64,000 bases of DNA from Cryobacterium sp. Y29. Its GTDB lineage: Bacteria; Actinomycetota; Actinomycetes; Actinomycetales; Microbacteriaceae. The stretch spans positions 62,001 through 126,000 of the forward strand of contig NZ_PJJN01000034.1 of the NCBI RefSeq assembly GCF_002929825.1. The letters run 5' to 3'. The translations under genes and the position numbers were made by a program. Below, one piece after another: positions 6,260-56,497 of the stretch. Numbering within the stretch: the stretch's first letter is position 1; each line of letters starts with the position of its first letter. The notes under the pieces are model-generated. The model was given only the letters and a program-made list of their open reading frames with translations, did no database searches and was not told the DNA's origin.

Positions 6260-6268
6260 CAAAATCGC

Positions 6269-7036: not shown

Positions 7037-7046
7037 AGTCGCCGCC

Positions 7047-13591: not shown

Positions 13592-13609
13592 CACTTTCTA
13601 AGGACATAG

Positions 13610-13645: not shown

Positions 13646-13683
13646 CGTTCTCGAGGCACACCAAAATGTGGTTGGCTGAAGCA

Positions 13684-13836: not shown

Positions 13837-13909
13837 TCTACCGGCGAGGAGAGCGCCGTCGCCAAGCAGCGACGCCGTCATCGTCTGCGCCTGATCTAAA
13901 CTCGGGGTC

Positions 13910-29954: not shown

Positions 29955-30040
29955 CCGCCGCGCCATCGCGATCTGGTTGGAGCCGTGAGGAGACACGCTT
30001 TGGCGGGGTGCCCCGGTTGCCAGGTGTCGGACGGCCCGGG

Positions 30041-30514: not shown

Positions 30515-30543
30515 GCCCCTAATCTAGTGCTAGCGTCAACTAA

Positions 30544-30555
30544 TCAGCTAGCTGA
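30544..30555. promoter_or_regulatory. Candidate MarR operator palindrome
   Basis: TCAGCTAGCTGA is a perfect 12-bp palindrome centred in the divergent gap, 5 bp before the AGGAG ribosome site of the TspO-like gene. Nearby CTAGTGCTAGC and GACTAGTAGG repeat the CTAG core. Position and symmetry fit a MarR-type site that would block transcription of the transporter genes. Confidence 0.6.
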
Positions 30556-30571
30556 CTAGTAGGAGACTGAG

Positions 30572-40893: not shown

Positions 40894-41525
40894 CGGCTGA
40901 CCCGCTTGGGACCGTTCGACAACGTGACATCGGGTGAGCGCAAGTACAGCGGCGCATTGGCCGCGAAAGGGCGGTGGTGGGCGAAGCTCAGCTCGGCCAC
41001 CAGTCCGAGATCTCCAGCCGCCACCGTGGCGGCGTCGATTCGGGGCCACAGCGCGTGCAACCAGGTCGGGTCGTCGAGTTCGGCCGGTTTGGCGAGGCCG
41101 GGCACCCCGACGCGTACTGGCAGACCCACGGCATCCGCTTGGGAATAGGCGCTCCAGTAGATTTCGCGGCGGCGGGCGTCGGTCACGACGACGAGCGGGC
41201 CGCTGTGTCCACGGCGGTAGTGGCCGTAGGCGATGGCATCGTGGCTGATGACCGGTACGAGCGGTTTGCCGGCGCCGAGGGCGAAGACACGGGCCGAGGC
41301 GATGCCGACGCGTAGGCCGGTGAACGGGCCGGGGCCCATGCCGCCGACCACGCCGGAAAGTGCAGCGGGCGCGATATCCGCTTCCCGCAGACACTCGAGA
41401 ATGAACGGGCCGACGATTTCGGCGTGGCGCATCGTGTCGGCCTCACCGCGTTCGGCGATCACACCCCGGGTGAGGTCGACGACGGCAACGCTCGTGCCAG
41501 CAGAGGTATCAATGGCGAGTAGCAC
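40890..41525 (-). CDS. tsaB: TsaB, t6A biosynthesis protein
   Basis: TsaB is the ASKHA-fold scaffold that dimerises with TsaD. The 211-residue protein begins LLAIDTSAGTSVAVVDL from GTG 41525 and has GVVGGMGPGPFTGLRVGIASARVFALG and RRREIYWSAY. It opens the tsaB-rimI-tsaD block. Its usual upstream partner tsaE is not adjacent but 13.3 kb away (54844-55383). Confidence 0.95.
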   Translation of the reverse strand: MLLAIDTSAGTSVAVVDLTRGVIAERGEADTMRHAEIVGPFILECLREADIAPAALSGVVGGMGPGPFTGLRVGIASARVFALGAGKPLVPVISHDAIAYGHYRRGHSGPLVVVTDARRREIYWSAYSQADAVGLPVRVGVPGLAKPAELDDPTWLHALWPRIDAATVAAGDLGLVAELSFAHHRPFAANAPLYLRSPDVTLSNGPKRVSR

Positions 41526-41580
41526 CCGTTCAGCCTAGCTTTGATGGGGCAAGCGTTTTGCGCGCCGGGCGCTGGTGTGA

Positions 41581-42348
41581 TCAGGTCAGAAAGAGCACGG
41601 TGGCGGCCGTTAGTGCAACGACGACGAGGATCGTGCGCAACACCGGGGCCGAGAGACGCCGACCGATGCGGGCGCCGATCCAGCCGCCGAAGGCTGACCC
41701 CACGCCGATCAACAGAGCGATCACCCAGTCCACGGTTCCGCTCGAGATGAAAATGATCGCCGACACGAGGTTGGCCATGCCGGCCAGAACGTTCTTGGCT
41801 CCGTTTGCCCGGTGCATATCGGTGGACCAGAGGATTCCCAACAGGGCAAGGAGCACCACGCCCTGGGCCGCTCCAAAATATCCACCGTACACACCCGTAC
41901 CGAGAATGCCGAGTACCAAACCGAACGTGATCGGGCGGGTGTCGGTGGTGGTGCCTTCGGGCGCTTTGCGCCGAACGTACCGTGCCACTTTGGGCTGCAC
42001 CGCCGAGAGCATGGCGGCCAACAGTAGGAGGAACGGAACGACCACCGAGAAGGCCTCCTCCGGCAGGATCAGCAGCAGCAAACCGCCGGTCACCCCACCG
42101 ACAGCCGAAAACACGGCCATCCAGGCCACCGGTCGCCACTGTGACTTGAGTTCCCGCCGGTAACCGTAGGCACCTGCGACCGACCCGGGAACCAGACCAA
42201 CGGTGTTCGACACGTTCGCGGTGATCGGCGGGACGCCCAGGGCTAGCAGTGTAGGAAAAGTGATCAGGGTCCCCGCGCCGGCGACCACGTTGATGATGCC
42301 AGCGGCAATGCCGGCGACCAGAATGATCGCGCCTTCAAGAAGAGTCAT
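41581..42348 (-). CDS. TauE/SafE-family sulfite exporter-like membrane protein
   Basis: The 255-residue protein has about eight membrane segments and the TSUP repeats: IILVAGIAAGIINVVAGAGTLITFPTLLALGVPP in the first half (read as helix 1 and loop) and GILGTGVYGGYFGAAQGVVLLALLG in the second. Substrates of this family are sulfite, sulfoacetate or other small organosulfur anions. It directly follows the quinone oxidoreductase gene with no gap. It is the last gene of the block between tsaE and tsaB. Confidence 0.9.
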   Translation of the reverse strand: MTLLEGAIILVAGIAAGIINVVAGAGTLITFPTLLALGVPPITANVSNTVGLVPGSVAGAYGYRRELKSQWRPVAWMAVFSAVGGVTGGLLLLILPEEAFSVVVPFLLLLAAMLSAVQPKVARYVRRKAPEGTTTDTRPITFGLVLGILGTGVYGGYFGAAQGVVLLALLGILWSTDMHRANGAKNVLAGMANLVSAIIFISSGTVDWVIALLIGVGSAFGGWIGARIGRRLSAPVLRTILVVVALTAATVLFLT

Positions 42349-43368
42349 TTAGTGAGATTTTCCAGTGTTCGAATTCTCGGCGGCCGCGTCGCCGACGGCG
42401 AGCACAATCTTGCCGAGGGAGGAGTTGGTGCGCATCAGAGCCTGGGCCGCGTCGGCCTCGGTCCACGGCATGATTCGGTCGATGAGCGGTCGAAGAGCCA
42501 CTGCGTCGAGGTCGACGTCAGCACGCAGTGCGGTGACGAGGTCGATTTTGTCTGGCGTGGAGCGGGTGCGAAAGGTGACCCCGTACAGGGCGAGTCGCTT
42601 GTACGCGAGCATTTCCAGATCGAGAGTGCCCACGCTGCCGCCGAGTCGCCCCACCCCGATGATGCGGCCCGCGATGGCGGCCGAGCGGATGTTGTCGGCC
42701 AGGCATGGTCCGCCGACATGGTCGACGATGACGTCGGCACCGTGCCCATCGGTCAACGCCAGCACCCGGTCGGCGAAGCCGTCATCGCCGACGACGATCA
42801 CCTGGTCGGCCCCGACCGAACGGATCAGCGTGGTCATACTCTCCGAACGGGTGGTACCGATCACGAGCCCGGCGCCGAGGTATTTCGCCAGCTGAACACA
42901 CTGCAAGCCGACAGAGGACGCTGCGGCATGAACCAGCACGGTCTCACCGGGCTGCAACCGACCGTGGGTGCGCAGTGCATTGTGTTCGGTCAGGAGGCCG
43001 AGAACCGCCGCGGCCCCCTCGGCGTAACTCCACGCGTCGGGAATCGGAATGGGCAGGTCGGCATCGACGATGATGTGCTCGCTGAGCCCCCCGCCGACGA
43101 TGGTCATGACGCGATCGCCAACCCGCAGCGAGGTGACGTCGGAACCGATCTCGACCACCTCGCCGGCCGCGTCGAGTCCGACCACCGGCGGCGGGGTTCC
43201 CGGTACCCCCGGCTCATGGGTTCCGGAGCGTTGGGCCAGGTCTGCCCGATTCACCGATGCCGCGTGCACGAGGATGCGCACGTCTCGAGGCCCTGGTACC
43301 GGTACGGCGCGTTCACGCAGCATCAGTTGTGGTCCGTCGATCCCCTGTTCAACCAGAATCGCTTGCAT
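42349..43368 (-). CDS. Quinone oxidoreductase-type zinc-free MDR dehydrogenase
   Basis: The 339-residue medium-chain reductase has a GroES-like N-terminal part (VRILVHAASVNRADLAQRSG, then PVVGLDAAGEVVEIGSDV) and a Rossmann part (VLVHAAASSVGLQCVQLAKYLGAG). It lacks the zinc-ligand set, as in NADPH:quinone reductases of the PIG3/QOR type. The ATG at 43368 is where homology begins; the frame is open to 43497. It may reduce a quinone or an alpha,beta-unsaturated carbonyl. Confidence 0.9.
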   Translation of the reverse strand: MQAILVEQGIDGPQLMLRERAVPVPGPRDVRILVHAASVNRADLAQRSGTHEPGVPGTPPPVVGLDAAGEVVEIGSDVTSLRVGDRVMTIVGGGLSEHIIVDADLPIPIPDAWSYAEGAAAVLGLLTEHNALRTHGRLQPGETVLVHAAASSVGLQCVQLAKYLGAGLVIGTTRSESMTTLIRSVGADQVIVVGDDGFADRVLALTDGHGADVIVDHVGGPCLADNIRSAAIAGRIIGVGRLGGSVGTLDLEMLAYKRLALYGVTFRTRSTPDKIDLVTALRADVDLDAVALRPLIDRIMPWTEADAAQALMRTNSSLGKIVLAVGDAAAENSNTGKSH

Positions 43369-43636
43369 CAGAGGAAGTGTCCTTTCGTTCTGACTCGCCA
43401 AAGCAGCGGAGGTGCAAAATATTCGGTTCGTTTGATTATGGCTCAGGCATCGGGCGTTCAAAAATTCGGCCGCGGGTAACAGACACGGCCATGGCATCCG
43501 TTTGACTTGTCACCATAACGTGGGTAAGACAAAGTGGACTAATCAGTTACTCACTTTTGATTCCGCGGCGTTGCGGACACTCGAGTCATAGTGCTCCCGA
43601 GTCTTCTCGCCAGGCTCAAGAGATCAGCAATGAAAA

Positions 43637-43987
43637 TTGGTCTGGGTCTGGAACAACGTGGACACGGCCGTGTTCGCCCGCACGCGAGCGGCGCGGTTCT
43701 TCGAGCCGGAGCACGTCTTCACCTCGGAACGGCTCGGCGTCTACAAGCCCTATCCGGCCATCTACGAGCGGGCGAGAGACGCGTGTTCTGCCCTGGTGCA
43801 CGTCGCCAGCTCGGCCCGGGACGTGCGCGGAGCACTGGAATCCGGCATCCGGGTGATTCGCCTGCGTCGGCCCGGCCACGAGCTCGACCCGACCGGCCCG
43901 GTTCCCGGTCAGGAAGCCGCGAGCCTGGCCGACCTCGAGACCTTGCTTAGGGCGTGTGGTGCAGAAAAGAGCTCACCCGTCGGCTGA
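43637..43987 (+). pseudogene. C-terminal fragment of a haloacid dehalogenase-type (HAD) hydrolase
   Basis: The frame encodes FTSERLGVYKPYPAIYERA (HAD motif III lysine region) and VASSARDVRGALESGIRVIRL (motif IV region), as in type II haloacid dehalogenases. The N-terminal DxD nucleophile motif and motif II are absent, and no suitable upstream frame restores them. The end overlaps the hydratase pseudogene (convergent) by about 40 bp. This is almost certainly a 5'-truncated remnant. Confidence 0.6.
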
Positions 43988-44707
43988 ATTCCTCGGGGTC
44001 GGAGGCGAGGCCCATCGGCGCTCGACGCGCCGGCTCCGCTACCGGCCGCAATCCGAGGTCGACGGCGGCCTTGGCCGCGCGCAGGGATGCGGCTGAGACG
44101 GCGCCCCACGCGGCCAGCAGTTCGGCGAGTGCTGCATCAATGGCGTGGTCAGCAACGAGGGTCGTGACCAGGCCGAGCCGCTCGGCTCGCTGCGCGGTCA
44201 GCAGCTGGGTGTCGAAAAGCACAGCCTTGGCGCGGGACGGCCCCACGCGCAGTGACAGTCGGTTGGCGAATGACGCGGGCGCCAGAATCCCCAGGCGCGC
44301 AATCGGCATGCCCAGCCTGGCCGTGCTGCTGACCAGCTGCAGATCACAGCACAGGGCCAGCTGGCAGCCGCCGCCGGCGCCGTGCCCTCCACGACGGCTA
44401 CCGTCGGCATCGGCAGATCCTCCACCGCCTGCAACGCTGCTTCAATCGCGGCGAAGCTCACACTGACGTCGTCAGCGGATGCCGCCTCCCACTCCCGCAG
44501 GTCGTTGCCGGCGCAGAACATGGGCCCGTTTCCGCGCACGACGACGGCGCGCAGTTCCGGTCGCAGCGCGAGCGATCTGGCCACCACTTCCAGCTCCCGC
44601 CAGCCATCGATCCCGAGGGCGTTGAATCGCGCCCCCGTTCCGATGCTGATCGTGGCCACCGTGCCGTTTTCGGACAGCGTCACTATCTCTTCACGTGTGC
44701 GGGTCAT
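43947..44707 (-). pseudogene. Enoyl-CoA hydratase/isomerase, frameshifted
   Basis: Two overlapping frames together make one crotonase-family protein. The upstream frame gives LSENGTVATISIGTGARFNALGIDGW, VVVRGNGPMFCAGNDLREW (first oxyanion-hole segment) and PMPTVAVVEGTA. At about 44374-44384 the frame must shift by one base to read GGGCQLALCCDLQLVS, then GMPIARLGILAPASFANRL and the C terminus. One missing base in a GC-rich run explains it. The gene starts ATG overlapping the preceding CoA-transferase stop. A complete paralogue is at 50968-51750. Confidence 0.75.
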
Positions 44708-45915
44708 GCAACCGCACCGGTCTCTCGTAACGACTGGATTCTCTCGGCACTGAAGCCGGCACCCAGCAGCACGTCATCGGTGTGTTGTCCGAGTAGCGGC
44801 GGAGCGGTCCGTACGGCGACCGGAGTGCGGGTCAGCCGAATCGGACAATTGATTTGGGCAAGAGCACCGATCGACGGATGCTGCACCTCGGTCACCATGC
44901 CCCGAGCGACGACCTGGGGATCGACCAGAGCCTCGTCGACCGACTGGATCGGACCGACCGGCACGCCGGCCAGATCGAGCAGCCGCACCCATTCGGCGGT
45001 GCTGCGTGCAGCCAGAAGCGGTTCCAGAATGAAGATGAGCTCCTCGCGATTTTCCACCCGCAGGGGTTGCTGCAGAACCGTGGATCCTCGGCCAGTCCCG
45101 GGCATTCCACCGCCGCGCTCAACCGGGTCCACAATCGGTCGTTACCGACGGCAACCATGACAACCCATCGGCCGAGGCGAACGCCTGGTAGGGGGCGATA
45201 GTGGGATGCGCCGAACCGTAACGCCGCGGAACGTCTCCGCTGGCGAAATAGCCCCCGGCCACATAGGTCAGCCACGCCACCGAACCATCCAGCAGACTGA
45301 TGTCGACCCACTGCCCCCGCCCGGTACGCGTTTTTTCGTGCAGGGCCGCCAGAATGCCGATGGTCGCCCACATGCCGGCGACGAGGTCGGCGCTGCTCAC
45401 ACCCACTCGAACGGGCGGGCCATCCGCTTCGCCGGTCACACTCATGATGCCGCTGCGAGCCTGGGCGATCGCGTCATAACCTGCGCGGTGGGCGTCTGGC
45501 CCGGTCTGCCCGTATCCGCTGATCGAGGCATAGATGAGGCCGGGGTTGTTGCGCACCAAGTCAACATAGCCGACGCCCAGTCGGCTGGCCGTGCCCGGGC
45601 GAAAGTTTTCGACGACGATATCGGCCGTGCGCGCCAGGGCCAGGACCGTGGCCAGACCCTCCGGCGATTTGAGGTCCACGGCAAAGCTGCGCTTATTACG
45701 ATTGATCGACAGAAAATAAGCGGCTTCGCCACCCTGCGAGGGCGGGCCCCACTGCCGGGTGTCGTCACCGGTTCCCGGCTGCTCGATCTTGATCACGTCG
45801 GTCACGAGGTCGCCGAGCGTCATCGTGGCGAAGGGGCCGGACAGGATGCGGTGAGGTCCAGCACGACGAGCCCGTCGAGGGCTGACGTGCCGGCGGGAGC
45901 GGGACGTGGCTGCAT
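44704..45915 (-). pseudogene. CaiB/BaiF-family CoA-transferase, multiply frameshifted
   Basis: The start ATG 45915, with AGGAGACACC upstream, gives ALDGLVVLDLT, then a frameshift at about 45845-45853 is needed to reach LSGPFATMTLGDLVTDVIKIEQPG. That frame runs through VDLKSPEGLATVLALARTADIVVENFRPG (catalytic-Asp region), GLIYASISGYGQTGP and RRYGSAHPTIAPYQAFASAD. A second shift near 45165 restores VVMVAVGNDRLWTRL and a third near 45065 restores RVENREELIFILEPLL. Three shifts in one gene indicate a dead gene unless the sequence is faulty. The complete paralogue is at 51754-52968. Confidence 0.78.
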
Positions 45916-46059
45916 GTGGTGTCTCCTGTCTGGCGTGAAGACTCACAGTCCGCATCGCCGCGGTAGCAAGGTGAATAACTCACCAGTCCACCTCTGTAGC
46001 AGCCCCGGGTCGCACGTCAAGGCACGGAGCCAAACTGAACAGTCCACTTTTCCCGTGGC

Positions 46060-47232
46060 TTACCGGCCGTGCCGTCGGCTCATGCGTCCGCTGGTCCCCG
46101 CCACGATGGCCAACCCCACCGATGTCGCGGCGAACACCCCTGGCACCCCCCAGGAGGCGGCAACCAGTCCGACGGCCGCTGGCACGGCAGATTGCCCGAA
46201 CCGATTGGCGCTGAGACGCAAGGCAAGCCAGGTGCCGCGCGTTCCCGCCGGCGCGGTGAGTGCAATCACGGACATGGTCAGCGGCTGGCCGATCCCCAGC
46301 CCCAACCCGGCCAGCATCAGCGCGGCGCCGAGCAGCCAGACGTCGAGGGGCAGCACAAGCATCGCCACCGCAATGGCGGACACGGCCGTCGATCCGAATA
46401 CAAGCCGGTCCCGGCCAAATCGCGTGACCAGGGCGCTGAGGAAGAACCGCGACACGATGGTGGCCACGGCCCGCACCATGAGCAGAACTCCGATGACGCT
46501 GGCGGAAATCTGACGTTCGACACCGAGGGCCGGCAGGTAGACGGAGAGCAGATCGATGGCGGCCAGCACCATCATGCTGACCAGCATTGCTCCCAGCATG
46601 CGTCGCCGGGTCTCTTTCGGAGCCCGCAGTGCTTCTCTCAGCGACGTGGTCGGCCTCGGTGTGGCCGTGGCCCCCCGCGGCTGCCGATGGGCTAAGAAGG
46701 CGGTCGGTATGAGCAGCAGCACTGCTGCCACGAAGGCGATGAAGAACAGCGTCGCGGTCGGCGGCAGAATGTTGTCGCCGCCGACGAGCGCGATGACCCC
46801 CGGTCCAACAGCCTGTCCCAGCGTTCCCGCAACCGTGTAGTAGCCGAAGGCCGAGTCGAGGTTTTTCGCATCGGTTTTGGCGACTCGACTCTGTTGGCCC
46901 ACCGCCGAGAGCAGGTGCCCCAGGCCGAGCAACACGTTCCACACCAGCAGCAGCGTCAGCGTCGGGGTGTAGAACACGAGCCCGGCCGCGGATCCGACGA
47001 AAAGCACTGCGCCGACGGAAAGCACGAGCCGTTCACCGCGGAGGTCGGTGATCCTGCCCACAAACACGGCGATGAACAACGGCACGATTGCCGAACTCGC
47101 GGCGATGAGTCCCAGCCAGGTGACCGGAACGCCCATTTCCAGGGCGCGATAGGCCGCCGTTGGCCGCACAATAAACGCGATGAACTGTACGAGCATGGCG
47201 TGCTGGAACAGCGCCCAGGGCAAGTGACGCAT
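46060..47232 (-). CDS. MFS transporter
   Basis: The 390-residue protein has 12 membrane segments and a loop 2-3 motif FVGRITDLRGERLVLSVGAV, with VWNVLLGLGHLLSAVGQQSRVAK and GTLGQAVGPGVIALVGG in the N-half and GLGIGQPLTMSVIALTAPAG in the C-half. The substrate is unknown. It begins 25 bp after tctA on the same strand and may be the last intact gene of that operon; a second route for the same carboxylate or its product is plausible. Confidence 0.87.
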   Translation of the reverse strand: MRHLPWALFQHAMLVQFIAFIVRPTAAYRALEMGVPVTWLGLIAASSAIVPLFIAVFVGRITDLRGERLVLSVGAVLFVGSAAGLVFYTPTLTLLLVWNVLLGLGHLLSAVGQQSRVAKTDAKNLDSAFGYYTVAGTLGQAVGPGVIALVGGDNILPPTATLFFIAFVAAVLLLIPTAFLAHRQPRGATATPRPTTSLREALRAPKETRRRMLGAMLVSMMVLAAIDLLSVYLPALGVERQISASVIGVLLMVRAVATIVSRFFLSALVTRFGRDRLVFGSTAVSAIAVAMLVLPLDVWLLGAALMLAGLGLGIGQPLTMSVIALTAPAGTRGTWLALRLSANRFGQSAVPAAVGLVAASWGVPGVFAATSVGLAIVAGTSGRMSRRHGR

Positions 47233-47257
47233 TGGTTAGTCTCCGGTCGTGGTGGCG

Positions 47258-48883
47258 TCAGTTGGGCGAGCTTACGTCCTTCTTCTGGCCAGACGAATCC
47301 GGCGAATCCAGCGAATCCTGGGTCTCTGGCGAGGGTTCCACCGGCGTTCCGCGACGCCGACGCCCGACCTCAGTGACCGCCATCGCGGCCAGACGGGTAA
47401 TTCGACGGCTCATAAAGGGAAGCGCGATAAGTGCGACCATCACGGCGAGAATCCACATCGAGGCCGAACGCTCGACGAAGATGCCGAGGTTGCCGCCAGA
47501 GATAATCATCGTTTGGCGAAGCGACTCCTCCGCCAGCGGACCGAGCACGAGCGCGATAACGAGCGCGGCCGGCGAGAAGCCGTAGCGACGCATGAAGAAG
47601 CCGAGTACGCCACAGGCCAGCATGATTCCAACCTCGACCATGCTGCTGTGCACGGCGAAGGTACCGAGCACGCAGATCACGATAATGATGGGAGCCAGAA
47701 TGCGAAAGGGAACCCGGGCAACATTGGCAAACGTGGGAATCATGAAGATGTTGATGATCAGCAGTGCCACGTTTCCGAGGTACATGCTCGCGATGAGCCC
47801 CCAGGCGAAATCTGGATTCTGTTCCATGAGCAGCGGGCCCGGCTGCAGCCCCCACATGAGAAAGGCGGCCAGCAGCACGGCCGTCGCTGCCGAACCGGGG
47901 ATGCCCAGGGTCAGAAGCGGAACCATGGCACCGGCCGACGCACCATTGTTTGCGGCCTCCGGTCCGGCAAGGCCGGCCATGGCGCCCTTGCCGAATCGTT
48001 CCGGCTTCTTCGAGATCGATTTTTCCAGACTGTACGACATGAGCGACGCGACCGTCGCACCCGCACCGGGGGCAAGCCCGGTGAAGAAGCCCAGGAAGGA
48101 TCCGCGCACCATGGCACCGTTCGACTCCTTGAAGTCGGACCTGGTGGGCCAGAAACCCTTGCCCTTGATCGAAATCTTGCCGAAATCGAGGTGCTCCTTG
48201 TGGGCTCCGCGCCAGAGCGAGTAGAGGATCTCCCCCACACCGAAGAGCCCGATCGCCACCGGTACAAAGTCGATTCCGCTGATCAGCTCGCTGGACCCGA
48301 AGGTGTAGCGCTGCTCGCCGACCCCGATGTCGATGCCGACCGTAGCCAGGGCAAACCCGATAAGTGCCGACAGAATGCCGAGAATTCGGTTTTTACCGAT
48401 GATCATGATGAGCGTGAGCAAACCGACCACCACGATCAGGAATAACTCCGGGGGACCGAAGGTACGAGCAATCGATGCGACCAGCGGCGCGAAGGCGCTC
48501 AGGAGGATGACTCCGATGGTGCCGGCGATAAAGGATGCGATCGCAGCCATGACCAGCGCGGGGCCGGCTCGGCCCTGCCGGGCCAGCGGATACCCATCAA
48601 AGGTACTGGCCACCGTGGCCGATTCACCGGGAGTGTTGATCAGCACCGAGGTGATGGTGCCGCCATACATTGACCCGTAGTACACCGCGGCGAGCATGAT
48701 TATGGCGCCCGTCGGTTCCATGCCGAAAGTCACCGGCAGCAGGATCGCGATTCCTGCCGTTGGACCGAGCCCCGGCATGACCCCGATGATCATGCCGAGG
48801 GTGACCCCGGCCAACAGTAAGAGCACGTTCTGCACGGTGAGGATCGTGACGATCCCCTGCGCGAGGTTGTTGAAAATATCCAT
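47258..48883 (-). CDS. tctA: TctA, tripartite tricarboxylate transporter large permease
   Basis: The 541-residue protein is the large channel subunit of a TTT-family secondary transporter driven by ion gradients. It has the two TctA signatures: GMIIGVMPGLGPTAGIAILLPVTFGM (near 30-55) and, in the second half, GFFTGLAPGAGATVASLMSY and LGIPGSAATAVLLAAFLMWG. The start ATG is preceded by AGAGGAA. A Ser/Pro-rich tail of about 35 residues ends the protein. It works with TctB and the TctC binding protein encoded upstream. Confidence 0.95.
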   Translation of the reverse strand: MDIFNNLAQGIVTILTVQNVLLLLAGVTLGMIIGVMPGLGPTAGIAILLPVTFGMEPTGAIIMLAAVYYGSMYGGTITSVLINTPGESATVASTFDGYPLARQGRAGPALVMAAIASFIAGTIGVILLSAFAPLVASIARTFGPPELFLIVVVGLLTLIMIIGKNRILGILSALIGFALATVGIDIGVGEQRYTFGSSELISGIDFVPVAIGLFGVGEILYSLWRGAHKEHLDFGKISIKGKGFWPTRSDFKESNGAMVRGSFLGFFTGLAPGAGATVASLMSYSLEKSISKKPERFGKGAMAGLAGPEAANNGASAGAMVPLLTLGIPGSAATAVLLAAFLMWGLQPGPLLMEQNPDFAWGLIASMYLGNVALLIINIFMIPTFANVARVPFRILAPIIIVICVLGTFAVHSSMVEVGIMLACGVLGFFMRRYGFSPAALVIALVLGPLAEESLRQTMIISGGNLGIFVERSASMWILAVMVALIALPFMSRRITRLAAMAVTEVGRRRRGTPVEPSPETQDSLDSPDSSGQKKDVSSPN

Positions 48884-48916
48884 GGCTATTCCTCTAGGAG
48901 AATCGACGGATCGAGA

Positions 48917-49468
48917 TCAGAAGGCCGGGATGATGCCGGCCGGCAAGCCCGCGTTCAGCCCGGTCTGCAGAATCAGGTACAGGGCGAGGGGCGTGGCGAC
49001 GCTGATCACAATGTTCGCTACCCAGCGACCACGGTTGAGGAACCACAGCATGCCGAACAGAAAGAGCGCACCGGCCACGATCGCACCGAGGGACAGCAGC
49101 ACAAGAATGAAGCTGCCAGCGGCAACGACCGTGAAGGTCATGACCAGCGGATGGTGGCCCAAATCGGCTTCTCCGACGTCCTCTTCCAGATCAGCGGCTC
49201 CCGATTCCTCGGAGGCCACCCGCATACTCTGCACCAGAGCGATGAGCGTGATCGCGATGATCAGTCCGCCCACGACCCGGGGGAAGAAGCCGGGGCCGAT
49301 GCGTCCCGCCTGCGTGACCCAGTCCATCCGAAACGCCATTTCGGTGTATCCGATGAACAAAACGAGTACGACCCCGAGGAACGCGGTCTTGGCCGACGGG
49401 CGCCGGCTCCAGCCGGCATGCCCGACACCCGGGAATATCGTGCGGTGTGCCGCTACGGCCGAGCTCAC
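48917..49468 (-). CDS. tctB: TctB, tripartite tricarboxylate transporter small permease
   Basis: The 183-residue protein has four membrane segments (AFLGVVLVLFIGYTEMAF, IGPGFFPRVVGGLIIAITLIALV, VVAAGSFILVLLSLGAIVAGALFLFGM, ANIVISVATPLALYLIL) in the TctB pattern, with GRIGPGFFPRVVG as the conserved loop. The GTG at 49468 overlaps the tctC stop (GTGA); the frame open to 49630 is antisense noise. It is the small membrane partner of TctA. Confidence 0.9.
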   Translation of the reverse strand: MSSAVAAHRTIFPGVGHAGWSRRPSAKTAFLGVVLVLFIGYTEMAFRMDWVTQAGRIGPGFFPRVVGGLIIAITLIALVQSMRVASEESGAADLEEDVGEADLGHHPLVMTFTVVAAGSFILVLLSLGAIVAGALFLFGMLWFLNRGRWVANIVISVATPLALYLILQTGLNAGLPAGIIPAF

Positions 49469-50457
49469 AGCGCGCCGACGTCCGAGAGAACGGTTTCGAA
49501 GTTCTCCGAGGTGGACTTCACCTGGTCGAAGAAATCGTCGCCCCAGGCGATGTTCTCCGTGAGGTAGTTGGAGTCGAGGTATTCCTTCCACTCCGGGGTC
49601 GCGACGACCTCTTTCATGGTGGCGATCCACCAGTCCTGGGCCACCTTCGGAGCATCCGGAGCCAGAATCATTCCCCTGGGCATCGAGGGCAGGCCGGTGA
49701 TGCCCAGCTCTTCGCCGGTCGGCACATCGGGCAACACGTCCAGGCGGCTGATACCGGTGTACAGCAGGGGCTTCATCGCGCCGGCTTCGAACTGTCCGAG
49801 GATGCTCCCGGTGTTGTTCACCGAGGCGTCCAAAGCGTGCGAGAGGAGGGCCGTATTGAGCTGGCCCTCATCGTTGAAGGGCACGTACTCGATCTCGTAT
49901 CCCCCAGCCTCGGCCAGCAGGGCATGCAAAATAAAGTCGACGTTGAGAGGTCCAATGCCACCGACGACGACGGATTTCTCACCCTGGGCGTAGTCGACCC
50001 ATTCCTCCCAGGTATTAATGGGGTTGTCACCGTTGAGCGTGAAGATCGCGTCGTCACTGCTGAACAGGCCCACCGGCGTGAAATCTTCGTAGGTCCACCC
50101 GGTGTCCGCCTGCATCGGCGTTGTGATGAATGATCCGGAAGTGGTGGAGATGTCGTATCCGCTTCCGGAGTTGTTGAGCAGGTAGCCCCAGCCGGTGGCG
50201 CCACCACCACCTTCCCGGTTTTCCAGTCGGATGTTCTCCGGATACATCTCGTACTGCTGGATGATGCTAACCAGGGTGCGAGCCATGATGTCGTTGCCGC
50301 CGCCGGGCCCGAATGCGATCGTCCAGTCGAGTTCCTCTGAGGGGTAGCTGGCGGCATCCTCTTCGGTGGCGTTGCCGCCCGTTTCGCTGCAGCCAGCGAG
50401 CGGAACGACGAGGCCCAGTACTGACAGGGCCACGATCAGCTTCATTTTCTTGCGCAT
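49465..50457 (-). CDS. tctC: TctC, tripartite tricarboxylate transporter substrate-binding lipoprotein
   Basis: The 330-residue protein has a lipoprotein signal (IVALSVLGLVVPLAGCSETG) and the Bug/TctC fold: LDWTIAFGPGGGNDIMARTLV (first carboxylate-binding loop), NREGGGGATGWGYLL, then VVVGGIGPLNVDFILHALLA and LPDVPTGEELGITGLP. TctC/Bug proteins bind mono-, di- and tricarboxylates or related compounds. The ligand cannot be read from the sequence. Between tctC and the thioesterase gene there is about 70 bp. Confidence 0.94.
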   Translation of the reverse strand: MRKKMKLIVALSVLGLVVPLAGCSETGGNATEEDAASYPSEELDWTIAFGPGGGNDIMARTLVSIIQQYEMYPENIRLENREGGGGATGWGYLLNNSGSGYDISTTSGSFITTPMQADTGWTYEDFTPVGLFSSDDAIFTLNGDNPINTWEEWVDYAQGEKSVVVGGIGPLNVDFILHALLAEAGGYEIEYVPFNDEGQLNTALLSHALDASVNNTGSILGQFEAGAMKPLLYTGISRLDVLPDVPTGEELGITGLPSMPRGMILAPDAPKVAQDWWIATMKEVVATPEWKEYLDSNYLTENIAWGDDFFDQVKSTSENFETVLSDVGAL

Positions 50458-50527
50458 GTGATTCTCTTCTCTTCATTGAGTGAGGTACAGGTAGAACGGT
50501 GGTGCGGGTAGAACTTCTGTGCGGTTA

Positions 50528-50977
50528 CTAGAGGGCGTCGAGGCGATGCCAGGAACCGACCGCGAAGGCGACCAGACGGTCGTCCTCGTCGAACAGGCGC
50601 GACTCCAGGTGCACGATTCGGCGCCCGGCCCGCAGCACGGTGCCGATACATCGACCGTCCCCCTTCAGCGGCCGAAAGTAACGAACCTGCATCTCCAGTG
50701 TCATGGCTGTGGAGAGGAAGTGCTCACACAGATGACCCATGGAGACGTCCAGGGCCGTCGCGATGATGCCGCCGTGCATGGAACCCTGCGGGTTGCACAG
50801 GTGCGGCGCGTAGGGCAACGCGACGGTGCAGGTTTGGGCGAACTCGTCGTAGCTGATGCGCAGATCGAGGAACCGGGAGAGAAAGAAATTGCCGAATTCC
50901 TGGGTCGAATCCGCTGCCGCGAATTCGGCACGCTCCAGCGCGGACGAAAAGGCCACGCCGTTCGCGATCACGACCAC
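50528..50977 (-). CDS. PaaI-family acyl-CoA thioesterase (hotdog fold)
   Basis: The 149-residue protein has the PaaI/YbgC-type hotdog motif HLCNPQGSMHGGIIATALDVSMG, with Asp in the catalytic helix, and ends in the typical RRIVHLESRLFDEDDRLVAFAVGSW strand pair (read as two strands). It probably hydrolyses an acyl-CoA from the pathway to free CoA. The start is GTG 50977 or GTG 50971; the latter makes a GTGA overlap with the hydratase stop. It lies between the hydratase and tctC in one operon. Confidence 0.88.
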   Translation of the reverse strand: MVVIANGVAFSSALERAEFAAADSTQEFGNFFLSRFLDLRISYDEFAQTCTVALPYAPHLCNPQGSMHGGIIATALDVSMGHLCEHFLSTAMTLEMQVRYFRPLKGDGRCIGTVLRAGRRIVHLESRLFDEDDRLVAFAVGSWHRLDAL

Positions 50978-51750
50978 GTGAACAGTGGGGGCCGCTTGGC
51001 GATGAAGGCCCGCACGCCTTCGGCAAAGTCGTCGGTATCGAACGAGGAGTTGCGCATGTCAATGGTGGCCGCATCGTCGGCCACCTGGCCGGTCACGACG
51101 CGGCGCACCATGGCTTTGCCGGTGCGCACGCTGAATTGGGCTCGGGAGGCAACCGTTTCGGCAAACTCGTAGGTGTACTTTTCGAGGTCCCCCTGCTCGC
51201 ACAATTCGTCGAACAGGCCGAGAGCGAGGGCGCGCTCAGCGGGTATTTGCAGTCCGGAGGTGAGAATCCAATTCGCACGGGACGGCCCGGCGAGATCGAC
51301 AACGCGTTTGGTCGACTCGAGGCTGTAGACGAGGCCCAGTTTTCCGGGCGTAATGGCAAATTTCGCGCGGGTATCGGCAAACCGCATGTCGCACGCCAGC
51401 GCCAATCCGGCACCGCCACCGATGCAATAGCCGTGGATCATGGCGATCGTGGGCTTCTGCAACGATTCAATGGCGTGTTCGGCAGCGGCGACGCGCTCGT
51501 TATAGTTTTTCGCCTTGGCCGCATTGGAGCGGTGTTCCTGAAACTCGCTGATGTCCGCGCCGGACGCGAATGACTTCTCGCCGGCACCACGCACAATGAC
51601 AACTTTGACGGTCGGATCATCGTCGAGGGCCGAGATGAGCGCCGGCAATTCCGTGTACATCGCCATGTTGATCGCATTGTGGCTCTGCGGCCGATTGAGA
51701 ACGAGGGTGGCGATTGCGCCCGCCCGCTCGATGAGGAGGTCTTCAGACAT
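50968..51750 (-). CDS. Enoyl-CoA hydratase/isomerase
   Basis: The 260-residue crotonase-family protein has LVLNRPQSHNAINMAMYTEL, the oxyanion-hole segment GAGEKSFASGADISEF, IAMIHGYCIGGGAGLALACDMRFAD and GKLGLVYSLESTKRVVDLAG. The usual first catalytic Glu of ECH is not evident in GKLGLVYS (where ECH has ExxxG), so it may be an isomerase or hydrolase. It starts 3 bp after the CoA-transferase stop. A frameshifted paralogue is at 43947-44707. Confidence 0.93.
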   Translation of the reverse strand: MSEDLLIERAGAIATLVLNRPQSHNAINMAMYTELPALISALDDDPTVKVVIVRGAGEKSFASGADISEFQEHRSNAAKAKNYNERVAAAEHAIESLQKPTIAMIHGYCIGGGAGLALACDMRFADTRAKFAITPGKLGLVYSLESTKRVVDLAGPSRANWILTSGLQIPAERALALGLFDELCEQGDLEKYTYEFAETVASRAQFSVRTGKAMVRRVVTGQVADDAATIDMRNSSFDTDDFAEGVRAFIAKRPPLFTWS

Positions 51751-51753
51751 GGT

Positions 51754-52968
51754 TTAGTGCCTTTCCAATTCTGGGTGTGCGTCAAAAGCGACACCATCAG
51801 CAAACATTTTGTCGACCTCGTTGTCGCTGAGTCCGGCTTCGCGCAGCACCTCGGCCGTGTGCTGGCCGAGCCACGGCGGCGCCTTGCGAATGGTGTAGTC
51901 CATCGTCGAAAACTTGACCGGCGGCGCGAGCATCTTCATCGGGCCGATGATCGGGTGCTCGATTTCGACGATCATTTCCCGATCCAGAATCTGCGGATCG
52001 TTCATGGTCTGGTCGTAGGTCAGGGCCGGACCGCACGGCACTCCGGCGAGGTCGATGATCGCTATCCACTCCGCTGTGGTTTTGGTCATCGTGATGATCT
52101 CAATCTCACGCTCGAGTTCGTCGATGTTCTTCATGCGATCGGGGAGCGTCTCGAACCGGGGATCGGTCAGCCAGGCCGCGCGATCGAAGGCATCCACAAC
52201 CAGCATCTCCCACAAGCGGTCGTTGGGGGCCCCGATCGTGACGTAACCGTCTGAGGTGCGGTAGGCCTGATACGGCGTCGACCGACGATGACGGGTTCCC
52301 GTGGCCTGGGGCACTTCGCCCGAGCCGAAGAAGGCACCGGACTCCCAGACGGTCCAGGCCAGCCCGGCCTCGACGATGGAGATATCCATGTATTGCCCTT
52401 CGCCGGTCTTCTCGCGCACCATCTGCGCCCCCATAATCGAGTACACCGCGGTCATCCCGGCGGCAACATCGTTGATGGCGATGCCGATCTTCGCCGGCTT
52501 TCCACCGGGCTCACCCGTCATGCGCAGAAAACCGCTGATTCCCTGGGCCATGATGTCGAAGCCCGGCCGGTGTTTATAGGGGCCGGTCTGGCCGAAACCG
52601 CTGATGGAGCAATACAGGATGTCGTCGCGAATGGCCCGCACCGCGTCGTAGTCGATTCCAAGTCGCTTGGCGACCCCCGGGCGAAAATTCTCGATGACCA
52701 GGTCGGCGTCGTCCACGAGCCGCATGAAGATGTCATGCCCTTCGGCACTCTTCAGGTCCAGGGAGATGCTCCGCTTGCTACGGTTGGGCATCGCGCCCGG
52801 ATAGCTCTCTCCATTGATCTTCGGCTCGAAACGTCGCTCGTCGCTTCCGGTGTGCGGCTGTTCAATTTTGATAACGTCGGCACCGAGCTCAGCCAACACC
52901 ATCGTGCAATACGGACCGGAGAGAAATCTGGTCAAGTCGAGAACACGAAATCCATCCAAGGGACGCAT
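51754..52968 (-). CDS. CaiB/BaiF-family (class III) CoA-transferase
   Basis: The 404-residue protein has RPLDGFRVLDLTRFLSGPYC, LGADVIKIEQPHTGSDERRF, LDLKSAEGHDIFMRLVDDADLVIENFRPG (catalytic Asp region), YCSISGFGQTGPYKHRPGFD and the C-terminal PPWLGQHTAEVLREAGLS. Family members move CoA from one acyl-CoA to an acceptor carboxylate. It opens the minus-strand operon CoA-T, hydratase, thioesterase, tctCBA, MFS, and is divergent from the IclR gene. It would activate the imported carboxylate as a CoA thioester. Confidence 0.95.
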   Translation of the reverse strand: MRPLDGFRVLDLTRFLSGPYCTMVLAELGADVIKIEQPHTGSDERRFEPKINGESYPGAMPNRSKRSISLDLKSAEGHDIFMRLVDDADLVIENFRPGVAKRLGIDYDAVRAIRDDILYCSISGFGQTGPYKHRPGFDIMAQGISGFLRMTGEPGGKPAKIGIAINDVAAGMTAVYSIMGAQMVREKTGEGQYMDISIVEAGLAWTVWESGAFFGSGEVPQATGTRHRRSTPYQAYRTSDGYVTIGAPNDRLWEMLVVDAFDRAAWLTDPRFETLPDRMKNIDELEREIEIITMTKTTAEWIAIIDLAGVPCGPALTYDQTMNDPQILDREMIVEIEHPIIGPMKMLAPPVKFSTMDYTIRKAPPWLGQHTAEVLREAGLSDNEVDKMFADGVAFDAHPELERH

Positions 52969-52980
52969 GTTGCTCCTTTC

Positions 52981-53020
52981 CTACATAGTGGGATAGATAA
53001 CTACATTTCGGGATATATGA
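52981..53020. promoter_or_regulatory. 20-bp direct repeat between the CoA-transferase and iclR genes
   Basis: Two adjacent 20-bp units (CTACATAGTGGGATAGATAA and CTACATTTCGGGATATATGA) agree at 15 of 20 positions. They lie in the AT-rich 98-bp gap between the divergent operon start and iclR. Tandem sites in this position are typical for IclR-family autoregulation and control of the divergent pathway genes. Confidence 0.6.
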
Positions 53021-53066
53021 TGTGTTTGACCATAGGGTCGTCCCAGAGAGAAGTCAAGGAATCGCG

Positions 53067-53906
53067 ATGAGTGAACACAACGACGCGCTCGAGGGCGCGG
53101 CACCGCGCAGCGGAGTCCAGTCGATCGACCGGGCAGTCGCCATCCTCCGGTGCTTCGACTCCCAGCATCCCCATTTGGGAATCACCGAGATAGCCCACCT
53201 GACGGGCCTGTCCACCAGCACCGCCCACCGAATACTCACGGCGATGCTGGCCAACCAACTCGTGCGGTCCACCTCGGGCCGGCGATACGGCCTCGGCCCC
53301 CTGCTCGTACAACTCGCTCAAAGCGGAGCCCTGGCCACGACATTTCATGAAGTGGCCCTGCCGTTCATGACGAATCTGCGCGACGAAGTGAACGAAACCG
53401 TGGCGCTGCACTCGCTGCTGGCCTCCGAGGACCGTGCCGTCATCGACCAGGTTGAGAGTCATCAGGAGCTGCATCGACGGTATACCGAGATCGGCGTACC
53501 GATCCCACTGCCGCTGGGCGCGCCCGGAAAGGCGATTCTGTCGGCGATGCCGTGGGATCGTCAGTTGGCCCAGCTGGAGCGCCCCCTGGCGCGCGTCGCC
53601 CCGCAACAGATCACCGACCCGGTACAGCTGCGGATCGAACTCGACAGAACTCGCAATCGCGGCTGGGCCGAGTCCAAGGCGGAACGCACACTGGGCATCA
53701 GCTCCGTTGCCGCTCCCATTTTCGACCACAGCGGGAGCGTCATCGGTGCGCTCGGTCTGTCGGTACCCAGCGTGCGCATGAGCGACGATCGAATGCACGA
53801 GCTGGGGCGCCGCGTGCAACTCGTGGCCCGAGAGATCTCCGCCGCCCTGGGCGCAACGGATGCCCTCATCCAGCACGGTCAGGAGCTCGCGCGACCGACG
53901 GCCTGA
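53067..53906 (+). CDS. IclR-family transcriptional regulator
   Basis: The 279-residue protein has an N-terminal winged helix (GVQSIDRAVAILRCF, then LGITEIAHLTGLSTSTAHRIL, GRRYGLGP) and an IclR ligand-binding domain (MTNLRDEVNETVALHSLL, GAPGKAILSAMPW, GWAESKAERTLGISSVAAPIF, ALGLSVPS). The ATG at 53067 is chosen because AAGGA lies 7 nt upstream; the frame is open to 53022. It is divergent from the CoA-transferase operon and is its likely regulator, with the carboxylate or its CoA ester as the probable effector. Confidence 0.93.
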   Translation: MSEHNDALEGAAPRSGVQSIDRAVAILRCFDSQHPHLGITEIAHLTGLSTSTAHRILTAMLANQLVRSTSGRRYGLGPLLVQLAQSGALATTFHEVALPFMTNLRDEVNETVALHSLLASEDRAVIDQVESHQELHRRYTEIGVPIPLPLGAPGKAILSAMPWDRQLAQLERPLARVAPQQITDPVQLRIELDRTRNRGWAESKAERTLGISSVAAPIFDHSGSVIGALGLSVPSVRMSDDRMHELGRRVQLVAREISAALGATDALIQHGQELARPTA

Positions 53907-54033
53907 ATGCGTGACCGCTCGAGGCAGCGCGGCAGTGGACAGCCCACTGGCGCAATAGGTAACTTGGTGCGGGTTCCGATACGCTGTCGGGGTAAAAGAA
54001 GGATGCGAGGACTCACGATGACCCCCCCAACGG

Positions 54034-54735
54034 ATGATTTCGAAATCCCTGCCAGAGCAGCTCGGCCGGGTGTCCCGGCCCAGGCTCTACGAGCAGTTGG
54101 TCGAGCAGCTGCTCGGCTACATCGAATCCGCCCAACTAGGCCCAGGAGATCTCCTGCCGAGTGAACGTGATTTGGCCGAACGCCTCGGCGTGTCCCGGCC
54201 CACGCTGGCGCAGGCACTCGTTGCCCTCGAAGTACTCGGCGTCATCAACGTTCGTCACGGCACCGGCGTCGTGCTGGTCTACCGGCCCAGCATCGCCACC
54301 GTCATCAAGGGACTGCAGGCGCACCAAAACCGACTCCCGGAGATTGTGGAGGCGCGCAGCACGCTGGAGATCAAGCTCGCCTCCCTCGCAGCGCTCCAGC
54401 GCACCGATGCCGACCTCACGGCCATCGATGCGGCCCTCACCGCGATGGCCGAGGAAATCGCCGACGGCCACAAGGGTGCCCACGGCGATGAGTTGTTCCA
54501 TCAGGCCGTAACCCAGGCCGCGCACTCGGCGGTTCTGGGGCAGCTGATGACGTTCATCGCCGAGATGATTCTCGAGACACGCCTGGAGTCGCTCGGCCAG
54601 CCCGGGCGACCGGAGCAGTCGCTGGCGTCGCACCGGGCCATCGCGGCGGCCATCCGCTCGCAGGATGCCGACGAGGCAGCGGCGCGGATGCTCGCGCACA
54701 TCGAACTCGTGTCGGACGTCGCGTTGTTGAAGTAG
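54034..54735 (+). CDS. FadR/GntR-family transcriptional regulator
   Basis: The 233-residue protein has a GntR winged helix (RPRLYEQLVEQLLGYIES, LLPSERDLAERLGVSRPTLAQALVALEVLGVI, HGTGVVL) and an FCD effector domain (IVEARSTLEIKLASLAA, DELFHQAVTQAAHSAVLGQLM, SHRAIAAAIRSQDADEAAARML). Its ATG 54034 has no ribosome site. An ATG at 54018 has a good GAGG 8 nt upstream but is out of frame, separated by a C7 run. With one C fewer the two would join as MTPQRMISKSLPEQ. The start may therefore be affected by a homopolymer change. It is the last gene before tsaE (convergent). Confidence 0.87.
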   Translation: MISKSLPEQLGRVSRPRLYEQLVEQLLGYIESAQLGPGDLLPSERDLAERLGVSRPTLAQALVALEVLGVINVRHGTGVVLVYRPSIATVIKGLQAHQNRLPEIVEARSTLEIKLASLAALQRTDADLTAIDAALTAMAEEIADGHKGAHGDELFHQAVTQAAHSAVLGQLMTFIAEMILETRLESLGQPGRPEQSLASHRAIAAAIRSQDADEAAARMLAHIELVSDVALLK

Positions 54736-54843
54736 GTCCAGCCCCGCGTCAGGAATTCCACCAGTCCAGGCGCTCGCTCCGGCGCCGGAACGCGCGCCGA
54801 TACCCGCGATGATCGGGTCATTCACCGAGCCGACAGAGTCGGG

Positions 54844-55383
54844 TCAGCCCAGACAGACATCGGCCAGCCGCTCCCAGCGCGGGCCGCGACCCGTGAGCGT
54901 CAGGGTGCGCGGTTCGTCGACGTCGTGATCGAGATCGATAACGGTGTCGAGAGCGGATGCCGCGGCATCCGCTTCACGGGCAGCCTCCGCACGGCCCTGC
55001 GGCCGCTCGATCTCGATGTCCAGCCAGGATTCGGTGATGCCATCGAGCAGACCGCGTCCCCACTCGACCACGACGATCGAGCGGACGAAGTCGATATCGA
55101 GGTCGTCGAGTTCCATGGCGCTGCCGAGGCGGTACGCGTCGACGTGCACGAACGGCGGCCCGCCCACGAGACTCGGGTGCGTGCGAGCGAGCACGAAAGT
55201 AGGGCTGGTCACGGCTCCACGCACCTGCAGCCCCTCGCCGAGGCCACGCGTCAGCGTGGTCTTGCCCGCCCCAAGCGGTCCGGTGAGCACGATGAGGTCA
55301 CCGGCCAGCAGGGTACCGGCGAGATCCACTCCGAACCGGTGCATCGCCGCCGCATTCGCAATCGTGCGGTGCAGCTCAGTCAT
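54844..55383 (-). CDS. tsaE: TsaE, tRNA t6A biosynthesis ATPase
   Basis: TsaE is the P-loop ATPase of the TsaBDE t6A complex. The 179-residue protein has LTGPLGAGKTTLTRGLGEGL (Walker A near 32-51), GAVTSPTFVLARTH, FVHVDAYRLGSAMELDDLDID and VVVEWGRGLL. The start overlaps the alr stop by 8 bp. Its stop is now followed by the convergent FadR gene instead of tsaB. Confidence 0.95.
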   Translation of the reverse strand: MTELHRTIANAAAMHRFGVDLAGTLLAGDLIVLTGPLGAGKTTLTRGLGEGLQVRGAVTSPTFVLARTHPSLVGGPPFVHVDAYRLGSAMELDDLDIDFVRSIVVVEWGRGLLDGITESWLDIEIERPQGRAEAAREADAAASALDTVIDLDHDVDEPRTLTLTGRGPRWERLADVCLG

Positions 55384-56497
55384 TGATGTGTCGCCGCGTC
55401 ACCCGGGGCCCGATTCGCGTGACGATCTCGTAGTTGATCGTGCCGGCGGCGTCGGCCCAGTCGGTGGCACTCGGCGCGCCCGTGGCCGGGTCGCCAAACA
55501 GTACGACCTCGTCGCCGACAGCTACGCCCGGGTTTTCGGAGCCGAGGTTCACGACGAACTGGTCCATCGCCACCCGTCCGACCAGCGGGTAGTTCGCGCT
55601 GTGAATGTGCACGAGCGCTGCCCCCGAGGCCTGCCGGGGAACGCCGTCGGCATAGCCGAGCGGCACGAGCACGAGCGTGGAATCCTGCGGTGCGCGCCAC
55701 AGATAGTCGTACGAGACTCCGGCGCCGGCACTGACCCGTCGCACGAGGGCCACCCGGCCGCGCAGGGTCATGGCCGGAATCAAGCCGAGATCGGCTGAAG
55801 TTGCATCGTCGAAGGGCGACAACCCGTAGATGGTGATGCCGAATCGCACCATGGTGAAGCGAGCGGCCGGCAGCCGCAGTGCCGCTGCGGACGATGCAAG
55901 ATGCACGAGCGTGGGGGTCAGCCCGGCCGCGCGAGCGGCGGCGACGCCGCGTTCGAAGCATTCGAGCGCCTGCTGGTCGTCGAACGCCGACGCATTGGCG
56001 AGGTGGCTCATGACACCGTCGACGCGCAGCAGCCCGACCTTTTCGAGCGCAGCGGCGAGCGCGAAGACCTCGGCCCAGTCGTTCTCGTGCACGCCGTTCC
56101 GGTTGAGGCCGGTTTCCAGTTTCAGATGAACGGATGCGCTCTGGCCGAGTTCCGCCGCGGCATCCGCTACCTGTTGCACCTGTTGCGCTGAGGAGAGCCC
56201 GAGCGTGACGTCGTCGTCGATCGCAGCGCTGAAATCGGCGTCGGGGTCGTGCAGCCAGGCGAGAATCGGTGCATCGATTCCGGCGTCACGCAGGACCAAA
56301 GCCTCGTCGATGTCGGCGACGCCGAGCCAGTCGGCCCCGCCCGCGAGGGCAGCACGCGCCACCGGCACGGCACCATGACCGTAGGCGTTGGCTTTGACGA
56401 CCGCCATGGCGTGCGCGGCGCCTGCGACAGCGCGCAGGTGGGCCATGTTGTGGCGAATGGCGGCGAGGTCGACCACGGCCTCGCGAAAACCGGTCAC
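55376..56497 (-). CDS. alr: Alr, alanine racemase
   Basis: Alr makes D-alanine for peptidoglycan with a pyridoxal phosphate cofactor. The 373-residue protein has the PLP lysine in MAVVKANAYGHGAVPVARA, GLNRNGVHENDW, VRFGITIYGLSPF, the catalytic tyrosine region SAGAGVSYDYLWRAP, and VAMDQFVVNLG. The GTG at 56497 overlaps the acpS stop (GTGA); a frame open to 56527 adds only basic residues. Confidence 0.95.
   Translation of the reverse strand: MTGFREAVVDLAAIRHNMAHLRAVAGAAHAMAVVKANAYGHGAVPVARAALAGGADWLGVADIDEALVLRDAGIDAPILAWLHDPDADFSAAIDDDVTLGLSSAQQVQQVADAAAELGQSASVHLKLETGLNRNGVHENDWAEVFALAAALEKVGLLRVDGVMSHLANASAFDDQQALECFERGVAAARAAGLTPTLVHLASSAAALRLPAARFTMVRFGITIYGLSPFDDATSADLGLIPAMTLRGRVALVRRVSAGAGVSYDYLWRAPQDSTLVLVPLGYADGVPRQASGAALVHIHSANYPLVGRVAMDQFVVNLGSENPGVAVGDEVVLFGDPATGAPSATDWADAAGTINYEIVTRIGPRVTRRHIND

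Follow-up and report, generated by a model that had tools for sequence, protein, structure and literature searches.

The window analyzed here is a stretch of 64,000 nucleotides from Cryobacterium sp. Y29 in which a run of seven minus-strand genes is interrupted between tsaE and tsaB. The coordinates of the open reading frames (ORFs) confirm what a preliminary description of this DNA had noted, namely that the run falls into two tightly packed groups lying 13.3 kb apart. One group consists of glmS (56870..58720), acpS (56494..56850, with an ATG start), alr (55376..56497), and tsaE (54844..55383, recognized by the Pfam TsaE family), and the other consists of tsaB (40890..41525), rimI (40396..40893, Pfam Acetyltransf_1), and tsaD (39305..40399, also matched by tblastn). 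Neighboring genes overlap by 4 bp at acpS/alr, tsaB/rimI, and rimI/tsaD and by 8 bp at alr/tsaE, and acpS (by tblastn) and alr keep the same order in relatives. No internal stop was found in the 16 minus-strand genes that were re-read, tsaB and rimI among them (for tctB, this reading began at a non-start codon). The gap between tsaE and tsaB spans 41526-54843, about 13.3 kb. Comparison with relatives makes it very probable that the tsaE|tsaB joint is a hotspot of exchange that operates without an integrase and that a 12.64-kb segment (42350-54991) was imported there from a relative resembling C. aureum by double homologous recombination.

The ancestral arrangement can be read from the family. 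The comparison covered 57 genomes of Cryobacterium, a genus of the Microbacteriaceae, with the window's own genome included, and a family-level draw of 100 genomes, 98 of which were neither the window's nor Cryobacterium. After removal of two genomes with unmatched tsaE and one with unmatched tsaB, all 95 remaining Microbacteriaceae have the two genes on the same contig and strand, separated by less than 500 bp in 90, by 0.72-0.94 kb in three, and by more than 5 kb in two. Because 90 of these 95 genomes have the genes less than 500 bp apart, adjacency of tsaE and tsaB is ancestral and separation is derived, which bears out the earlier view of the usual gene order and answers the synteny check it proposed. 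In Cryobacterium, the two genes share a contig and strand in 55 of 57 genomes and lie on different contigs in two. The 55 gaps measure less than 200 bp in 23 genomes, 0.8-1.5 kb in 25, and 6.5-13.3 kb in 7, so that gaps above 5 kb occur in 7/55 Cryobacterium versus 2/95 other Microbacteriaceae. Each of the 25 middle-sized gaps holds one TauE-family gene (partial in genome G033), of type A in 5 and type B in 20. Over all 57 genomes, with types placed by coordinates, TauE-A stands at the joint in 11, TauE-B in 24 (in two of which it adjoins tsaE where tsaB is on another contig), and both in two (C. glaciale and Y11). The tauE gene of the window is type A, and a tauE gene is all that the joint holds in Y57, Y82, C. 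suzukii, C. gelidum, and a metagenome-assembled genome. The two large gaps outside Cryobacterium belong to two other genera, with 8.7 kb at the joint in G109 (locus L084) and 7.3 kb in G059 (L085). The three genes scanned in each encode a carboxyltransferase A/B domain protein, a DUF979 protein, and an alpha/beta hydrolase in the former and a MacB/FtsX permease, an HlyD-like protein, and a histidine kinase in the latter, and none of the genes in these two gaps matches those of the window.

Identity contrast and breakpoints

An identity profile was computed over the full 64 kb against the corresponding neighborhoods of Y57, the nearest relative found, and of C. aureum. Y57 is 94.7% identical in the left flank (42288 of 42337 bases aligned) and 96.3% in the right flank (4721 of 9008), and it lacks the block. 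C. aureum is only 86.3% identical in the left flank (29740 of 42337 aligned) and 88.4% in the right (4720 of 9008) but reaches 96.9% in the block (11478 of 12642). The same discordance appears at third codon positions, where identity to C. aureum is 65-74% in glmS, alr, the 5′ part of tsaE, tauE, tsaB, and tsaD and 90-97% in caiB1, ech1, tctC, tctA, mfs, and qor. Recipient sequence continues through glmS in the upstream flank, whose third positions are 92% identical to Y57 versus 74% to C. aureum. An unrooted core-gene tree from 19 loci pairs the window with Y57 beside Y82 and C. suzukii (both splits 1.0; the Y82-suzukii pairing has a support of only 0.39) and places C. aureum with C. flavum and PH31-L1. 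Genes of the block are rare in the genus: caiB1 of the window's type is present in 2/57 Cryobacterium genomes at 100% identity (next best 44%) and tctA of the window's type in 2/57 at 98-100% (next best 48%), in every case at the tsaE|tsaB joint.

Diagnostic sites resolve the switch points to 2 bp and 13 bp. At the left breakpoint (left in the reading direction of the genes; 54991..54993), which lies inside tsaE, the Y57-type run ends at 54993 and the first C. aureum-type site is 54991. At the right breakpoint (42337..42350), at the start of tauE, the last C. aureum-type site is 42350 and the first Y57-type site is 42337. Because the site pattern switches inside tsaE and at the tauE start codon, tsaE is a chimera and tauE is recipient sequence. 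The tsaE gene is of recipient type to about 54993 and of donor type from 54991 to the stop, that is, for the last ~49 codons, and it keeps an open frame of 179 codons. The tauE gene (type A, 41581..42348, minus strand) has 98% protein identity to Y57 and 93% to C. aureum and, judged by its sequence, is older than the import.

In the scheme we propose, the direction of transfer would have been into the window lineage, once this had separated from that of Y57 and with tauE already present. The donor would have been a relative with a C. aureum-like allele, and two homologous crossovers, one inside tsaE and the other at the tauE start, would have been made by RecA-type recombination acting on transferred DNA. 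The preliminary description had a block inserted between tsaE and tsaB. Insertion is borne out by the relatives without the block and by the ancestral adjacency, whereas its extent and course need to be redrawn: the diagnostic sites place it at 42350-54991 rather than at 41526-54843, leaving out tauE and taking in the 3′ end of tsaE. In the recipient lineage, a tauE gene already stood between tsaE and tsaB, the block was acquired through homologous exchange as an allele assembled beforehand, and the joint has been used several times.

These data also bear on whether the block could be an old, vertically inherited resident of the clade that Y57, Y82, C. suzukii, and C. gelidum each deleted down to tauE. 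Some filled version of the joint probably is old in the clade, as the fadR…qor frame recurs in several lineages. Vertical descent, however, does not yield third positions that match C. aureum at 90-97% within the block and at 65-74% beyond it, nor does it give a switch inside tsaE, and C. flavum and PH31-L1, with which C. aureum groups in the core tree, carry a different cargo. We consider deletion from a resident block very unlikely. An assembly artefact that joined unrelated pieces might be suspected in an assembly of 37 contigs, yet C. aureum, a separate record, has the identical gene order and both junction neighborhoods, and cargo at this joint is present in five other genomes; artefact can practically be dismissed.

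Base composition was considered as a sign of foreign origin and set aside. The block has a GC content of 0.638, with 0.648 and 0.662 in the flanks, and lies within the range of 12.6-kb windows across the 64 kb (0.635-0.655), as a congeneric donor would lead one to expect. Several features of the profile lie outside the segment. Y57 matches nearly all of the window left of ~59.7 kb, and the stretch from there to 64.0 kb is unmatched in the neighborhoods of both Y57 (~87 kb) and C. aureum (~98 kb), possibly another strain-specific insertion. Positions 1-9000 and 30001-33000 are ~94-98% identical to Y57 and have no counterpart in the C. aureum neighborhood. At 13001-14000, identity to Y57 falls to 81% between stretches of ~90%, which may mark a further recombination tract.

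Genes of the segment and its pseudogenes

The segment opens next to tsaE with two plus-strand regulator genes, a GntR/FCD gene called fadR (54034..54735, Pfam FCD and GntR; matched by tblastn in 6/7 filled sites) and an IclR-type gene (53022..53906, Pfam IclR_C and HTH_IclR). A minus-strand series follows, composed of caiB1 for a family III CoA-transferase (51754..52968), ech1 for a member of the enoyl-CoA hydratase/isomerase family (50968..51750, ECH_1), a 4HBT (hotdog) thioesterase gene (50528..50977, 4HBT), tctC for a solute-binding protein (49465..50457), tctB for a small membrane subunit (48917..49468, with a likely GTG start at 49468 by codon usage), tctA for the large permease subunit (47258..48883), and an MFS transporter gene (46060..47232, MFS_1). 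Beyond it lie a caiB2 pseudogene in several frames (44704..45955, minus), an ech2 pseudogene in two frames (43947..44707, minus), a HAD hydrolase remnant (43646..43948, plus), and qor for a zinc-type quinone oxidoreductase-like protein (42349..43368, minus, ADH_N and ADH_zinc_N; found by tblastn in 7/7 filled sites, partially in PH31-L1). Pfam backs the gene contents named in the preliminary description, with two family III CoA-transferases, TctC, TctB, TctA, two enoyl-CoA hydratases, TauE, MFS, IclR, and the GntR-FCD protein ("FadR"), and the three pseudogenes it had listed hold up as well.

Family roles suggest carboxylate uptake by TctCBA, CoA transfer by CaiB1, hydration by Ech1, and thioester hydrolysis by the hotdog protein. 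A carboxylate-type transporter, a CaiB-type CoA-transferase, and a crotonase-fold enzyme lie in one strand run, as in a carboxylate uptake/CoA-activation operon, and the substrate class of the cargo would be a carboxylate. None of the ten proteins scanned against NCBIfam reached a cutoff (for example, 286.7 of 750 bits for succinate--glutarate CoA-transferase). A plasmid origin of the cargo was tried and rejected: coverage of 80% is reached by no plasmid record, the tct genes at ~69% DNA identity are the best-matching places among the matches listed, and two records whose identity lies at 80-90% do not rank among the ten listed. Of the 924 records that CaiB1 matches at E 1e-50, none reaches 60% identity, and in an order-level draw, caiB1 is matched at E 1e-110 or better in 2/149 genomes, one of them the window's own.

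C. levicorallinum offers an account of the pseudogenes. It carries intact caiB2, ech2, and HAD genes together between fadR and qor, and its amidase, fatty acid transporter, and TRAP genes have no match in the window or in C. aureum. Because the trio is intact there and the rest of that cassette is unmatched here, the block reads as a tct cassette beside the wreck of a levicorallinum-like cassette. The HAD gene is shortened in both carriers of the tct cassette, with residues 119-219 of 222 (only the C-terminal part) left in the window and residues 107-219 left in C. aureum, and the damage to caiB2 and ech2 differs between the two. The two cassettes would have come to lie side by side before the block passed between the aureum-like lineage and that of the window, and on this history the pseudogenes are what is left of an earlier cassette.

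The joint as a recurrent exchange site

Different cargoes occupy this one joint. The seven filled sites among the 57 genomes measure 13324 bp in the window, 12332 in C. levicorallinum, 12240 in C. aureum, 8135 in C. glaciale, 7665 in Y11, 7345 in C. flavum, and 6476 in PH31-L1, and they hold four types of cargo, three of which combine carboxylate transport with CoA-transferase genes. The first, in the window and C. aureum, comprises iclR and the caiB1-ech1-thioesterase-tctCBA-mfs series. The second, in C. flavum, C. glaciale, and PH31-L1, encodes a MatC-type carrier, a CaiB-type transferase, and a carboxyltransferase-domain protein (in C. flavum, the carrier and carboxyltransferase were assigned by Pfam and CaiB by NCBIfam; the other two genomes were assigned by tblastn). 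The third, in C. levicorallinum, consists of an arylmalonate-decarboxylase-like gene, caiB2 and ech2 as single open frames, an amidase, a short-chain fatty acid transporter, the HAD hydrolase, and the TRAP transporter DctPQM. The fourth, in Y11 (L059, locus positions 3079-7415, minus strand), resembles a thiamine-salvage set with thiM- and thiE-like genes, an NMT1/THI5-like binding protein, and an ABC ATPase. This set sits on the other side of tauE, between tauE and tsaB; therefore, the interval has two insertion positions. Even the frame around the cargo looks mosaic, because the window's fadR is nearest to that of C. levicorallinum (83.5%) and its qor to that of C. flavum (91.5%), the C. aureum copies aside.

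In the 19 loci compared, no gap longer than 195 bp occurs at any of the five remaining joints of the seven-gene run. These other joints of the same operon are the only control for the hotspot, and since the 19 loci include all seven filled sites, 7/19 at tsaE|tsaB is no rate. In this Cryobacterium clade, the tsaE|tsaB joint is very probably an integrase-free exchange hotspot.

A rival account holds that a transposon or an integrase-bearing mobile element inserted the block and then lost its mobility genes. Some illegitimate or element-driven step is indeed needed to bring each cargo to the joint for the first time, and an inverted tauE fragment beside qor in C. glaciale, C. flavum, and PH31-L1 is a rearrangement scar. 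However, the import ends in homologous sequence common to the window and Y57. Integrases and other mobility proteins were absent from 20 window ORFs searched with Pfam, 10 searched with PHROGs, and 20 selected genes of relatives, small ORFs being outside the scan; no tRNA was found as an insertion target; and no terminal direct repeat of at least 18 bp, the shortest length sought, was found at the import ends. The preliminary description had likewise seen no integrase or obvious target duplication, and the features by which an integrase-carrying integrative element or genomic island is recognized (integrase, tRNA target, and attachment repeats, the last at 18 bp or longer) are lacking here. 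Insertion by such an element is extremely unlikely. In C. glaciale (L058, locus positions 9569-9982, minus strand), the inverted type A fragment stands directly before qor, and its frame continues into what, by eye, seems to be part of tsaB; the fragment is a scar left by an earlier rearrangement at the site. L060 and L061 likewise contain short inverted tauE pieces.

Several points weigh against homologous import at an integrase-free hotspot, the reading that we prefer. C. aureum is not necessarily the donor, because it diverges by ~3% in the block, and the actual donor or a shared source lies outside the set. The first assembly of a cassette at the joint is beyond what homologous exchange provides, and small ORFs and repeats below 18 bp fell outside the mobility scans. 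Within the donor-type stretch of tsaE stand three isolated Y57-type sites (54979, 54881, and 54872), which would be accounted for by later changes in C. aureum. A second case of exchange is weaker: C. flavum and C. glaciale, which are not sisters in the core tree, are 95-98% identical in 14/15 cargo windows of 300 bp, and their whole tsaE-tsaB interval is 92.9% identical versus 89.3% and 86.0% in the flanks. The sisters C. flavum and PH31-L1, at 92.1% versus 92.7% and 92.8%, offer no contrast, as under vertical descent.

Expression and known systems

Division of the run raises the question of how tsaB-rimI-tsaD is transcribed. The fadR and iclR genes point toward tsaE, and the genes from caiB1 to tauE (the HAD remnant excepted) are co-directional with tsaB. 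From these orientations, the earlier proposal that tsaB and tsaD now use another promoter is plausible, and tsaB-rimI-tsaD may be read from cassette-side or internal promoters. In the alr-groEL1 operon of Mycobacterium tuberculosis, promoters lie inside alr, tsaB, and rimI, according to the available text of PMC5335608. If Cryobacterium resembles M. tuberculosis, tsaB alone would require a new start, with little effect on rimI and tsaD. A bolder proposal, which we regard as unlikely, is that the joint is a docking site, mainly of this Cryobacterium clade, for allelic swaps of carboxylate cassettes and that tsaB-rimI-tsaD is partly read from cassette promoters under IclR/FadR control; if so, tRNA modification would be tied to carbon source. 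A scan for sigma-70-type promoters returned four matches versus 2.2 expected from shuffles, and the two in or beside the iclR/caiB1 gap are not taken as evidence of function. A palindrome occupies 54769-54798 between tsaE and fadR, but shuffled versions of the stretch fold just as well (z 0.13 and -0.99), and no terminator is claimed. Terminator-like matches number 15 versus 8.1 expected, all inside genes or gene remnants.

The window gives a base-level view of non-mobile metabolic genes crossing between species 12-14% apart by plain homologous exchange, and the site is the middle of a conserved essential run, where resistance to insertion would be expected. The empty, one-gene, and cassette-bearing alleles in named strains form a comparative set for studying operon splitting and t6A gene expression. 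In the literature collection searched, no paper pairs Cryobacterium with tsaD, the one that combines the genus with recombination and genomic islands deals, by its title, with swine farms, and "tsaB" and "tsaD" are absent from the main text of a paper on Cryobacterium gene flow (PMC12943682).

Related systems help to place the case. The M. tuberculosis alr-groEL1 operon has alr, tsaE, tsaB, rimI, and tsaD in one overlapping run, as described in the same text of PMC5335608, and, unlike the window, nothing between tsaE and tsaB. The cassette itself has a counterpart on a Roseivivax marinus plasmid, where genes for GntR, CoA-transferase, enoyl-CoA hydratase, PaaI thioesterase, and TctABC occur together (TctA 63%, TctC 55%, CaiB 39%, and Ech 34% identical to the window proteins), although TctABC is on the opposite strand and IclR, MFS, and qor are absent from the stretch shown. 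Replacement flexible genomic islands (Lopez-Perez et al. 2014, PMC4033161) likewise swap gene sets at one site via conserved boundaries. As portrayed in the portion of that article available, those islands encode exposed cell structures and the strains typically share >96% average nucleotide identity (ANI), whereas the cargo here is catabolic and transport-related and the donor type is 86-88% identical in the flanks. A further parallel is the system of PMC5635113 (2017), in the available text of which accessory genes vary between two fixed core genes without recognized mobile-element genes. Our locus shares that lack and, for the import in the window, the traces of recombination in the flanking core genes. 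It differs from the system in that text in that the flanking genes are both essential and belong to a single compact operon and the breakpoints are resolved to 2 and 13 bp, and "hotspot" is used here without the statistical definition given there. The mechanism, integrase-free hotspots recombining at flanking core genes, is known and the case is new; what stands out is that the site separates two essential t6A genes, that the breakpoints are sharp, and that the cargoes share a theme.

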